Assembly (NCBI GenBank): GCA_963855995.1
Contig: OY979723.1
Coordinates: forward strand, 2,485,001-2,549,000
Direction: 5' to 3'
DNA length: 64,000 bases
DNA from: Muricea muricata
Taxonomy: Eukaryota > Cnidaria > Anthozoa > Malacalcyonacea > Plexauridae
This document shows positions 26,332 to 47,149 of the stretch, in pieces. Position numbers and translations under genes: made by a program. The notes under the pieces were generated by a model, which was given only the letters and a program-made list of their open reading frames with translations, searched no databases and was not told the origin of the DNA. Numbering within the stretch: the stretch's first letter is position 1; every line of letters begins with the position of its first letter.

Positions 26332-26389
26332 GCATTTCGCGGCGGCACATCGTTGAACGTTCTGGTATAAAAAAAGTTTCGTTTCAACA

Positions 26390-41331: not shown

Positions 41332-41899
41332 GTTGCAGCGGAGCGAGCGAGCCTGAAGCGAGCGAGCGAAGCAGCAGACCTAATTTGTGTATGTAGGGGA
41401 AAATTTATCTCAAACCATGTTTACCGCAGTGCATTGTGGTCATGCGCGTTTGGAAATGCGCAGAACACCTTTCCTCACCTATGTTTCGTCACCAATTATG
41501 TCTTGTGTTCAGAAGATATCATGTTTCAGGCTGGCTGTTTAAAAAATCGTAGTTAGTCAAAACCATAAAGCTCGATAACGCATCTATTGTTGGATTTTGA
41601 AGCCAGAAATACATCACATTTTTAGACTTGCGGCCATGTTGGATGGCCCCACTTGAGCATCGAATGCTATAGATTTCTACTACAGGACAAATAGCTTACG
41701 TTTTGAAACAAAAGTTTTACGTTTTAAGGCAAAAGCTTCTAAAAATCTGGCTTCAATTTTATTTTTATTTTGTATTGCGATGCACTGTCCAGTGGTCAAA
41801 ACTCAAAAGCAAATGCCTTATCAAGGTTAAATTATATATGTGAGAGGAAGACAATTTGTTTTTCTGAATATATTCATTTTTGAAGTCTGCTGTTTGCGT

Positions 41900-41907
41900 T
41901 AATAGTG
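41900..41907 (+). repeat. 8-bp target-site duplication, left copy
   Basis: TAATAGTG directly before the left TIR; the same eight bases follow the right TIR at 46496-46503. Confidence 0.85.
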
Positions 41908-41996
41908 TAGCCTGCTTACCGCCTGGAATTTCCAAGGGGGGATAATTCCAGTCTGCTAAACTGGAGACCTAATCGTATTCCCTGACGTAGCACTTA
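41908..41996 (+). repeat. Left terminal inverted repeat, 89 bp
   Basis: Begins TAGCCTGCTTACCGCCTGG and includes AAGGGGGGATAATTCCAG and CCCTGACGTAGCACTTA. Differs from the right TIR at two positions, both A for G. Confidence 0.9.
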
Positions 41997-42127
41997 CAAG
42001 GATATAAGTAGCGTTCGTTGATTGGTTCATAGCCTGATTATATATTGGGTTATGTAAGAAATGCCGTGATTGGTTCAAAATCCAAATATAATTTAAGCAA
42101 CATTTTATACTTGTCATACAAAGCAAA

Positions 42128-44295
42128 ATGGCTTCGACAAAATACAGTCGCTCTTTTGCAAGTGATCGTTGGAATGACGCTTTAGCAGGTGTTTGTTCTG
42201 CGTTTAACATCAAAGATCTTTATTCGGAGCAAAAAGAAGCCTTGGAGAACTTTTTTGCTGGCAAACATGTGTATGTCAATCTACCAACCGCGTTTGGAAA
42301 ATCATTGATTTACCAAGCTATTCCAGTTATGGATGATTCCCTCAAACTTCGAACAGAACGTAGAGGAATAATTGTCGTAATCTCGCCTTTAAAGTCTTTG
42401 ATGATTGAGCAGGTTGCATTTTTAAATAGCATTGGTTTGCCGTCGGTTTCTTTATTAGATGTTGAATGTGAAAATGTAAAGGTGATCCAAGATGTTATCC
42501 ATGGGAAGTATTCGCATGTTTTTTCCTCGCCTGAATATATTCTTTCCATCAGCGTTTGGAGGGGGGTATTTGCATGTGAGCAGTTTAAAGAAAACCTTAT
42601 TGGTGTTGCAATCGATGAAGCACACTGTATAAGTCAATGGTAAGTTATAAATATATTAGCAAACATGCAAGAACTGTATGTAAATATGTTTGTAAACAAC
42701 AGACTTGCATATGAGTTTGAAATGGGCCATATAAAAATTCATACCCCCCTGTCGAGGACATCTGCCTTTGAGGGTGTTACCACTGAGCTCTATGGTGTTA
42801 CCCACTCTGGAATTCGAAAAAGTCTGTGTAACTGACCCCTCTAGAAGAGTCCTCGACCCCCTCTGGAAGTGCATTTTTACACCTTTACCCGTCTGGAAAC
42901 AGCAATCTACAGTACTTTGTTCTTTGTAGGGGAATGTCCAATAGTGAACGAGGGTTAAAAAATATTCCCGTCCGGAAGTGGTACTGAAATCTTGGTGAGC
43001 TGATGTCTCTTGTCCCAAGTAACACCAATTTTGTGGTCCTCACTGCCACTGCTACGCAGGAAACGACTGATTGCAATTTTGAAAGTTTGAAGCTACCGCC
43101 AAAGAAAACGCATACTGTGAAGCAAAGTCCTGATCGCCACAACCTACGATACAGTGTCCAGTACATTGATAACAATATGCCCTTGAAGATGGTTTTTGCT
43201 GGCCTCCTCGATGAAATGAATGAGAAAGGAGTGGAAGCGGAACGAACATTGATATACTGTCAAACCCGAAAGCATTGTGGTTTATTATATCGTTTATTCG
43301 AGATACATCTGAGAGATAAATTTTACCATGGCTGTGCTAAACCTAAGAATCGAGTTGTTGAAATCTATCATGCATCAACTCCTGATAAAGTGAAAAAGCA
43401 TATCATTGAAAATCTCAGTGATGAAAGTGGGAATATACGCATCTTAATCTCCACAATTGCATTTGGGATGGGTGTTAATAGTAAAGGCGTTCATCGTGTT
43501 GTGCATTTCGGGCCTTCTAAAAATATGGAATGTTATGTGCAAAAGAGTGGGTGAGCTGGTCGGGATGGAAAGCCAAGTAATTGCATCATCCTTTATAATG
43601 GATTGCTAGCTAGTCATTCAACCCCTAAAATGAAGAAACTCCTCGCTAATGAAACATCAGTATGTTTGCGTCAATTGATATTTGCAGATTTTAATATAGG
43701 TTGCTCTCATTTTGACTTACTTCATCAGTGTTGTGATGTTTGTGCACAGACATGTCAATGTGGTAACAGTGATTGTGGAAAGATACCAGTCATAAGTTGT
43801 GATCAAGATGATGATGATAATGAGATGCCAACAATTATCCGATCCGTGACATCAGAAGATAAGGCAACACTAAACGGTCTTCTAATGTCATACAAAATGC
43901 AACTGATAGAGACGGAGCTGAACACTATGACCTCAACTGTTGGCATTCCCAATGTATTTATTGAATTTGGAGGAATGCAGATCTCCCAAGTCCTCAACGC
44001 ATGCCACAAACTATTCACAATTGATGACGTAATTGAGAATGTGGAAATTTGGAGGAAAAATCATGCTCTAGGAATTTTAGAAGCTATTAAACATGTTTTT
44101 AATGATATTGACATATATTTGGATTTATCTGCGGTTGAGGATGAGGGATTGGACATTGACATGGATTGGGAAGAAGTCAGGGATGATTCTAGTTTTCTGA
44201 ACACGGTCAATTCACAATCTATGGAGTGGAGCCAAACAGACACTTCTGCAGACACTACTTTAGTGGAAAATCGTAGTGACTTTTTGAAAATTTAA
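42128..44295 (+). pseudogene. RecQ-type DNA helicase of the transposon, two in-frame TGA stops
   Basis: Superfamily 2 helicase, about 625 codons in two exons. Exon 1 (42128-42639) holds the Gln motif region (YSEQKEAL), Walker A T-A-F-G-K-S at 54-59, SPLKSLM and D-E-A-H at 163-166. The intron is 42640-42929 (GTAAGT...TTTGTAG) and keeps the frame: TG + G restores the Trp after CISQ. Exon 2 has TATAT (about 209-213), IYCQT (about 279-283), STIAFGMGV (345-353) and AGRDG (380-384), then a Cys-rich region (CCDVCAQTCQCG) like the RecQ zinc domain. TGA occurs at codons 190 (42985-42987) and 379 (43552-43554); both fit CGA to TGA changes at Arg codons. An intact relative would unwind DNA, presumably during transposition. 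Confidence 0.85.
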
Positions 44296-44651
44296 TAAGC
44301 ACATAATTATCGACATTGCATTGGCATAACAATGTTATTTTTGTTTAACTCAAGAAAATTATTGTATTATTATGACTATATACAGAAGGGTGATTAATAT
44401 TGCCAACTGTTAATGTAACCCATTAAGGTGCAACATTTACTTTAGGGGAGATCTAACTTGGGTATCAACCCCTATTACCCACAGAATAGGGCTTGACACA
44501 ATTTGCATCTAATCTGATTGGTTGATTAGGCACGAAAGATTTCTATTGGTTGCTTAAAAATAGCTCAGCCAAGATGACAACTGCCAAGGTCATATTTAAG
44601 GTTTTATCAAATTTAGTGATTTTATATAATGCAGACAGAGTACAAGGTTCT
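44296..44651. other. Short spacer between convergent transposon genes
   Basis: No gene; 3' ends of the helicase and transposase genes meet here. Confidence 0.6.
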
Positions 44652-46338
44652 CTACCTAGCCTTTCTGTGTAGGATCATATATTGTTTATGATCATTGATC
44701 CAACTAAAGTACTTTTGCAAGTTAAAGCCAGATAATAAAGTTGGCTCAACTTTCGAGAAGCAACCATAACTTCTACCAGGTGTTATGGTCAACGCATTCT
44801 GTGATAAAAGTTCACCGATTATCTTTTTCATGTCAGCCTTTTCCGACTTGCGAACGTGCTTCCCTGATCTTTTATACAACAACATTGATTCATCAAAGTT
44901 GTCTGCGAGTTGCTTTGTTATCCCCAATGGATGGCAGATTCGGTTGATGACTTTTCGCTGGCATTGGGACCTAGATTTTTCACAACATCCTTGAAAACTC
45001 TGTTGAGAAATTCTAGGGCAAGATCTAGAGGAATGTTGCCACCCATCTTATTCTTGCGTTTGGAAAATCTGTTCCAAATAAGTTGATAGGCAGCTTTTGG
45101 ACTCAAAAGCGCATTTATCTGGAAGAGCAGATAAAGGCCTTCGAAAGCATACTTATAACTACCTTTGTCATGATGCAGATACAATAAAAGAAATTTCCAA
45201 TTTCTAATAACTCTATCACCGTCACCTTCTGAAATTCCATCAAAGAAATTTAGGATGACCATACCATAGTCGAGAAGAGCTTTCTGGTAGTTATACATGT
45301 CATCTTGAACGACATCATCGTGGATTTCAGTGAGAAGAGGTTGCTCTTGTATACTGACAGGTGGACTATGAGACTGTTCGTGACTTTGTCTCCACTTTCC
45401 ATCAGATTGGAAAGTTTTCTTGCAACCTGGAAAACGACACTTGTACCGACCATCAAGTGTTCTAGCCTTTGAATCCCGAAGCTCTCTCTCTTCCAACTGT
45501 TTGACTGCTTTAACAATTTTCTTGTGCTTTACTTCATCAAGGATGTACTTATCAACAATGGAAGTAGACAACTTTGTCAAATACTCTTTCTTATCTTTGT
45601 TGTTCCATGTTTCTACATTGTTCAAGCTATCCGGCTCTTCTAAACTCTCCATTCCTATTTCAATCATGCCAGCAGCAACAACACGTGACTGGACTTCCAG
45701 GGTAAAGAAACGGCGGTTGGCATTAACCGCTGAATCTATATCCTTCTTAACTGATCGACGATTGATGAGGTTTCGATCACTAAACATGGTGCACTTATCA
45801 GAGGCGGACACTGGATTGTACAAACGGGAAAATAGTACCTGTTGGAGAAAGATATTAAAATTTGTGAACATTATGATACAGTAATCATGAAAGAATATTT
45901 TTATAGAATCAGTTATTTGTTATTTTCAGTTATTTGTTATTTTCAGTTATTTGTTATTTTCTGTCTTTTAACAATACCGTTGCTATTTGCACACATTTAT
46001 TGGAAATTTGTACACATTTAAGATTGAAAATGTTAAGAAACAAATCTTTATACAAAGGTATGGACAAAATTTGTACAAATTGCAGTCAAATTTCGTGCAG
46101 ACCTCTGTAAGAACTGAAGTATCAATCTCGCTCTCTTTCGTAGTTTGTCCAAACACTGTCGGCAAATGTATGGCGAAGCATCGAATACCTCGAACGGCAA
46201 TTGCTGAATGGCTTCTTTAATGTTGAATTTGGACTTGCCGATGATTAAATATCTTTCGTGTTTAAGTTTAATCACACGGAAACACAAAATACAACAAATG
46301 TTGGCTTCTGAATATAAAACAGAATGCGCGTCCGCCAT
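44652..46338 (-). pseudogene. DUF6589-like zinc-finger transposase, internally deleted and frameshifted
   Basis: The first exon (start at 46336-46338, MADAHSVLYSEANICCILCF) has two Cys pairs (C-x2-C and CRQC), like the N-terminal zinc domain I associate with DUF6589 proteins of cnidarians. A second block enters at a good acceptor (TTTCTCCAACAG, before 45842) and gives SDRNLINRRSVKKDIDSAV, then a C2H2 finger (C-x4-C-x13-H-x3-H in CRFPGCKKTF...HEQSH) and the C-terminal domain (GDGDRVIRNWKFLLLYLHHD, GGNIPLDLALEFLNRVFKDV). One base is missing in the T-run at 44952-44955; the tail (ITKQLADNFDESMLLYKRSG) continues in the next frame. The several hundred residues expected between the two zinc regions are absent. 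The family call rests on memory, not on a search. Confidence 0.75.
45911..45961. repeat. 17-bp tandem repeat, three copies
   Basis: AGTTATTTGTTATTTTC repeated three times inside the transposase gene, in the gap between its two coding blocks. It may mark the junction of an internal deletion. Confidence 0.9.
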
Positions 46339-46406
46339 GAATATTTATGCGTACCGGAAATATTTTTGAGCTAACGTGTACGGAAATTTATTTAATTATG
46401 CAGGTC

Positions 46407-46495
46407 TAAGTGCTACGTCAGGGAACACGATTAGGTCTCCAGTTTAGCAGACTGGAATTATCCCCCCTTGGAAATTCCAGGCGGCAAGCAGGCTA
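46407..46495 (-). repeat. Right terminal inverted repeat, 89 bp
   Basis: On the minus strand begins TAGCCTGCTTGCCGCCTGG. Same length as the left TIR, with two differences. Confidence 0.9.
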
Positions 46496-46503
46496 TAATA
46501 GTG
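46496..46503 (+). repeat. 8-bp target-site duplication, right copy
   Basis: TAATAGTG, identical to 41900-41907. Confidence 0.85.
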
Positions 46504-47149
46504 AAGTATTATTACAATTTAAAACGAGTTTGTTATTCGCACGACAATATTAAATCTCGTATTAAATTGCAGTGGAATTTTAATATACATTCTATTTGAT
46601 AGTATCGCGTCTGTGAAATTGTATTAAAGCGCGTTTGTTTTGTCGACAATAATTTTCCAACATTACCATTTGGGCTAATAGTCAACTGTAATCAAAGTTA
46701 ACAAACCACAGTTAAACAGAGACGCTGCATAATATATTCATGTTATGTTCTAAAACGCATCTGCTGTTCACGCGACATTATTTGCCGTGGAATTATGACA
46801 GTTTTAAATTTCGTGTGTTTGTGATCTAGCAAATATTTGCAACAAACATAATTATACAACAACTAATTATTTCAGAGTTCACTGTAGCTGTAAGAAAATC
46901 GTTAATTCCTTATCGATATGGCATTTGCTTTTCGACTTCGTTCATCGTTGACCCCTTTTGACCCCTGATGCTTAAGCCAGTCTGAAACATGATATCTTCT
47001 GGCAGACAAACTGAGTCAAGCCGAGTAATGTACTGGCAGGGTAGTAATGCACACTATCCCACTGAATATATTTTGGGTAAATGTCATTTTCCAATAACCT
47101 ATAAAATAATTAAAGCTCCGCAACATTCCCTACCTTGCAGGTAACCTAG

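Follow-up and report, generated by a model that had tools for sequence, protein, structure and literature searches.

The window analysed here is a stretch of 64,000 nucleotides from the genome of the octocoral Muricea muricata (GCA_963855995.1, contig OY979723.1, positions 2,485,001 to 2,549,000 of the forward strand), and at positions 41908-46495 it contains a broken copy of a DNA transposon, 4,588 bp long and delimited by terminal inverted repeats (TIRs). Two convergent genes are located between the TIRs, one on the plus strand for a RecQ-family helicase and one on the minus strand for a protein of the Pfam family DUF6589 (PF20231). In the assembly searched (453,007,491 bp in 74 contigs) the window corresponds to C8:2485001-2549000. 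A first-pass annotation of the sequence had described the locus as a TIR transposon in which a RecQ-type helicase is paired with a zinc-finger transposase, and the results given below support this description.

The left TIR (41908..41996, plus strand), which begins TAGCCTGC and has further copies in the genome, and the right TIR (46407..46495, minus strand) are both 89 bp long, as previously annotated, and were identical in 87 of 89 bases. With up to three mismatches allowed, the 16-base TIR tip was found in the window only at the two ends of the element (mean of 0.11 in shuffled sequences). The TIRs are bordered by two exact copies of the 8-bp target duplication TAATAGTG at 41900..41907 and 46496..46503, which cannot be lengthened; when 8-mers were drawn from the window in random pairs, 14 of 200,000 pairs were identical. 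An empty site was met by chance on contig C1, near 105.0 Mb, where a blind sample of the contig (22 stretches, 220 kb, with one neighbouring stretch added) included a second copy of the repeat that surrounds the element. This copy was 87% identical to the window flanks over 1,290 columns and ran continuously through the site without the element, carrying the single 8-mer TAATAGTC, which has 7 of 8 letters in common with TAATAGTG. The transposon thus lies inside a different repeat, where its insertion created the 8-bp duplication, confirming the duplication that had been annotated.

The helicase gene consists of a first exon (42128..42639, plus strand) with the motifs up to DEAH, a predicted GT-AG intron (42640..42929, GTAAGT..TTTGTAG) for which a corresponding intron was modelled in the full-length copy described below, and a second exon (42930..44295) interrupted by two in-frame TGA codons. 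The exons were delimited by tblastn, reading frames and Pfam matches to PF00270 (4.4e-13) in the first and PF00271 (1.2e-12) in the second. By its sequence the helicase belongs to the RecQ family: the relatives P0124 and P0135 scored 219.6 and 238.9 bits against TIGR00614 (RecQ; cut-off 219.8), and the nearest solved proteins were BLM, RecQ and WRN. Among the five helicase proteins scanned, none was reported to have an RQC or HRDC domain. In a tree of 33 rows, which combined the window protein with 32 of the 120 listed matches, the window helicase was sister to a Dendronephthya protein (100/99) and was placed in a group of 20 rows, split at 100/100 from 13 other RecQ proteins. The long-branch protist row P0188 also fell in the 20-row group, and the tool warned of long branches meeting there. 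A helicase relative from Paramuricea was 89% identical over 36% of the query. The second objection foreseen by the annotation, an ordinary host RecQ gene without TIRs, was not borne out: copies with the TIRs occurred elsewhere, and the helicase stood apart from the 13 other RecQ proteins of the tree.

The DUF6589 gene (PF20231 match 2.7e-14, minus strand) retains its start and its last exon. The remaining part of the first exon (46123..46338), delimited from the sequence and by tblastn, contains an N-terminal CxxC..CxxC finger that is weakly zf-AD-like; in the relative P0050 the zf-AD match had an E value of 0.0093, below its cut-off. The last exon (44652..45838), delimited by PF20231 and tblastn, contains a C2H2 finger insert and the third putative catalytic acid, and has a frameshift near 44950. 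Alignment to the full-length copy on contig C5 revealed an internal deletion junction at 46116..46121, where about 2.46 kb is missing. The lost stretch corresponds to positions ~384-2842 of the C5 copy, which cover exons 2 and 3 as well as most of exon 1, and holds the first two of the three putative catalytic acids. Residues 1-343 of P0013 had no tblastn match anywhere in the window element, and the finger-bearing relatives P0242, P0246, P0247 and P0050 were unmatched in it from the end of the finger (residue 56-77) to residue 452-613. The two genes of the first-pass annotation are thus a spliced RecQ gene and a DUF6589 gene in the convergent arrangement proposed, but both are remnants, the former with two TGA codons and the latter with the deletion and the frameshift. 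The window element is an internally deleted, decayed copy. Its observed/expected CpG ratio was 0.683, compared with 1.028 for the outer repeat and 1.082 for the window, which suggests decay after methylation. In the leftover transposase intron, three perfect copies of the 17-bp unit TCAGTTATTTGTTATTT were noticed at 45909-45961.

As the annotation had proposed, the genome was searched for complete copies with the TIR. A single search of the assembly gave at least 13 matches, and seven copies with both ends were examined; a partial match at C1:42244448 (80%) is outside this count. The copy at C5:10656907-10663986 is 7,080 bp long, with ends identical to those of the window element, TIRs matching in 91 of 91 bases and the 9-bp duplication CCTCAAAAT. 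In computed gene models its transposase frame comprised 984 residues in four exons and its helicase frame 628 residues in two exons, both without stops; the former was the best-scoring of 18 frame-keeping combinations and the latter the ISQW-keeping one of 4. Judged by these models, the C5 copy is seemingly whole, with both genes open. The full-length element is accordingly about 7.1 kb long, with TIRs of about 90 bp starting TAG and with transposase and helicase tail to tail. A third large copy (C1:47701700-47710492; 8,793 bp) had about 2.7 kb of extra DNA relative to the C5 copy and lacked about 0.66 kb; its duplication, CTCGTACGT/CGCGTACGT, is 9 bp with one mismatch.

The other four copies were foldback derivatives of 62-90 bp, scarcely more than both TIR tips back to back. 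Their duplications were GTAACAGGA (9 bp; C5:4155297-4155384), ATAATTGC (8 bp; C15 ~3725803-3725876) and CTAGTGTT (8 bp; C4 ~3670444-3670505), while the duplication of the fourth (C8:10529452-10529541) was undecidable in its TA-rich flanks. Because duplications of 8-9 bp flank elements of only 62-88 bp, the TIR tips, some 30-45 bp per side, are suggested to be sufficient for movement in trans.

Within this TIR family the duplication was 8 bp in three of the seven copies and 9 bp in another three, one of them with 8 of 9 letters matching; for the seventh copy it was undecidable. Copies without an eight-base duplication, named by the annotation as an argument against its reading, were therefore found, yet every decidable copy was flanked by a duplication of either 8 or 9 bp. 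A second family with the same gene pair was represented by copies at C9:6268816-6275353 (6,538 bp) and C1:51142864-51149394. Its proteins were 30-31% identical to P0001 and 30% identical to P0121, public proteins closely related to the last transposase exon and the second helicase exon of the first family, respectively. In the C9 copy the TIR is 98 bp long (98%) and begins TAGACTTGC; an N-terminal finger, the motifs GDNVD and MDLSVEH and an open RecQ gene are also present in it. Both copies had 9-bp duplications, CCATTGACT and CCAATTACC. When the two families were pooled, 8 bp was found in 3/8 and 9 bp in 5/8 decidable copies (one with 8/9 letters), and 10 bp in none. Since sister copies vary between 8 and 9 bp, the 8-bp duplication, from which the first-pass annotation had considered a separate lineage, marks no such lineage. 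For one copy of a third family (C7:9442001-9450500), no long-distance inverted repeat was found in this interval.

The pairing of the two genes proved to be recurrent. With P0001 at least 109 DUF6589 matches were obtained in the assembly (108 of 423 candidates scored) and with P0121 at least 94 RecQ matches (93 of 522 candidates scored), which after merging represented at least 94 DUF6589 loci and at least 91 RecQ loci. At 49 of the 94 DUF6589 loci a RecQ locus was present within 5 kb (at 45 within 2 kb), and all 49 pairs were convergent; the remaining 45 had no RecQ within this distance. In 500 trials with shifted helicase loci, the number of pairs averaged 0.68 and never exceeded 4. When the radius was 10 kb, 51 DUF6589 loci had a convergent RecQ, 3 a divergent one and 1 a RecQ on the same strand, and 39 had none. 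The public protein set was compared through its best 119 DUF6589 matches and its best 63 helicase matches with a contig (P0121-P0186, of 120 listed), equal contig size being taken as the same contig. Four equal-sized contigs were common to both; the one of 1,345 bp was set aside and three above 20 kb were counted (of 52 DUF6589 and 31 helicase contigs). In 20,000 jittered sets one coincidence occurred 53 times and two never. The transposase and the RecQ helicase are thus kept as a convergent pair across many divergent loci, and the statement that helicase carriage is rare has to be qualified for a genome with 49 such loci.

Relatives of the DUF6589 protein with a named organism were cnidarian (Dendronephthya, Paramuricea, Porites, Oculina, Exaiptasia, Nematostella, Rhopilema and others), the Paramuricea relative being 86% identical over 81% of the query. 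Two relatives of the transposase exon, P0045 and P0097, are labelled RatA toxin or TFAR19-related protein in protein sets, which look like mis-annotations. Scans of viral contigs with the helicase, DUF6589 and the TIR gave no confirmed relative. DUF6589 was not found mentioned by name in the literature searched. The DUF6589 proteins scanned matched no Pfam transposase family, no nuclease family was matched in the proteins scanned, and a PDB sequence search with P0050 gave nothing up to E = 1. Foldseek alone gave no match for the DUF6589 models at E ≤ 0.001; on re-alignment of its own candidates, transposases ranked top. The predicted structures were nearest to the P-element, Hermes and RAG1 transposases, with a modest fold match. 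The closest solved folds, those of the P element and Hermes, contain an RNase H core in which a helical insert precedes the last acid, as predicted for DUF6589; sequence identity in the structural alignments was 7-12%. From the predicted fold and conservation we infer an RNase H-like core with the acids D152, D306 and E623 (numbering of Dendronephthya P0013) and a helical insert with the C2H2 finger. The DUF6589 protein is probably a DDE transposase.

The element is very probably a cut-and-paste DNA transposon and an octocoral member of the AcademH-like, helicase-carrying kind, a relationship that the first-pass annotation had tentatively named and that is the best filing. AcademH, attributed by citing papers to Kojima in 2020, is said to comprise the helicase-carrying Academ transposons of animals and fungi. 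The comparison covered reported traits. The superfamily 2 (RecQ) helicase is present, as are the TIRs (87/89 in the window, 91/91 in C5 and, in the second family, 98 bp at 98% in C9), the animal host, the probable DDE transposase and, in 5/8 decidable copies, a 9-bp duplication. The duplications of AcademH are given as 9 or 10 bp, and those of AcademX as 3 or 4 bp, in passages of PMC10045372; the coral copies with 8 bp (3/8 decidable) and the absence of 10 bp are differences from the former. AcademX is assigned to the same Academ superfamily in those passages, but has a nuclease there, and its short duplications differ from the 8-9 bp of the coral copies. The phrase "RecQ Helicase in Academ" has been in print since 2013, as part of PMC3627910 attests. 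Helitrons, which have neither TIRs nor target duplication according to a part of PMC4522978, were ruled out for this element, which has both. The RecQ genes in that part of PMC4522978 were rejected as a parallel, being subtelomeric genes and not a TIR transposon.

A separate superfamily unrelated to Academ, with a RecQ acquisition of its own, a P/hAT-like transposase and duplications of 8-9 bp, appears rather unlikely. The absence of a 10-bp duplication from the eight decidable copies, the lack of Pfam transposase matches in the DUF6589 proteins scanned and the nearest folds would fit such an origin, as the P element and the hAT element Hermes make 8-bp target duplications. Against it, Academ and AcademH are themselves reported with a RecQ helicase, a DDE transposase, a 9-bp duplication and animal hosts, and the duplication ranges of the coral copies and AcademH overlap at 9. 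P and hAT elements are not known to carry a helicase. That PF20231 should represent a hAT/P-like transposase family of its own, placed tail to tail with RecQ in animals, producing duplications of 8-9 bp and forming a superfamily beside Academ, is similarly doubtful.

A Kolobok element with RecQ, either KolobokH or a relative of Kolobok-1_CCri, is very improbable. Kolobok elements target TTAA, whereas the coral duplications measure 8-9 bp and are in no case TTAA. Both KolobokH and Kolobok-1_CCri are described in sections of PMC9587614 as DNA transposons with a RecQ helicase, and KolobokH, reported there from fungi only, has the helicase downstream of the transposase domain, unlike the convergent genes on opposite strands in the coral. 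Gene order alone cannot exclude Kolobok, because the red-alga element Kolobok-1_CCri carries RecQ on the complementary strand, as does the coral element (same sections of PMC9587614). That the helicase and DUF6589 genes belong to the host and became enclosed as passengers by the termini of an unrelated element is barely credible: just three large copies with the window TIRs were found and the window copy is broken, but the same convergent pair is present at 49 loci with identities down to ~30%, also inside a second TIR family, and has relatives in corals, anemones and a jellyfish.

Under the AcademH-like assignment, transposase made from a full copy would bind the TIRs and excise the element, which would then be joined to target DNA with a stagger of 8-9 bases, giving the duplication. 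The helicase may assist, its likeliest contribution being either to open the DNA ends of the element or to aid gap repair. The deletion that removed the first two acids would be of the type left by interrupted gap repair. Because these acids are lost, the window copy would be mobile only with enzymes supplied by another copy.

The outer repeat around the element (41332..41899 and 46504..47149) was delimited by comparison with the G-protein-coupled receptor (GPCR) units and the C1 copy. It is about 1.2 kb long (41332-47149 minus 41900-46495), begins (G)TTGCAGCGGAGC and ends GTAACCTAG. It was present in one GPCR unit and not in three, and its second copy is at C1 ~104,999,319-105,000,567. The end CTAG followed by T, with no obvious duplication, is reminiscent of a Helitron-like element. 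The three tandem GPCR units, considered as an empty site, were uninformative on the inner element, since the whole of 41332-47149 is missing from them. At positions 3742-61545, open genes for rhodopsin-type receptors form an array, with 7tm_1 in the three open reading frames (ORFs) scanned, one slightly under its cut-off. The array includes three near-identical units (ORFs at 26357, 31455 and 36593) at a spacing of about 5.1 kb. A PRRSV_Env match of one window piece (E 0.0073, below its cut-off) was taken as chance.

The 8-bp duplication of one element defines no new lineage when sister copies show nine, and a possible over-reading of a single duplication length is thereby corrected. The Pfam family of unknown function DUF6589 (PF20231) gains a probable role as a DDE transposase, and the full-length C5 copy, with matching ends and seemingly open genes, offers a starting point for work on the role of a helicase in a cut-and-paste transposon.

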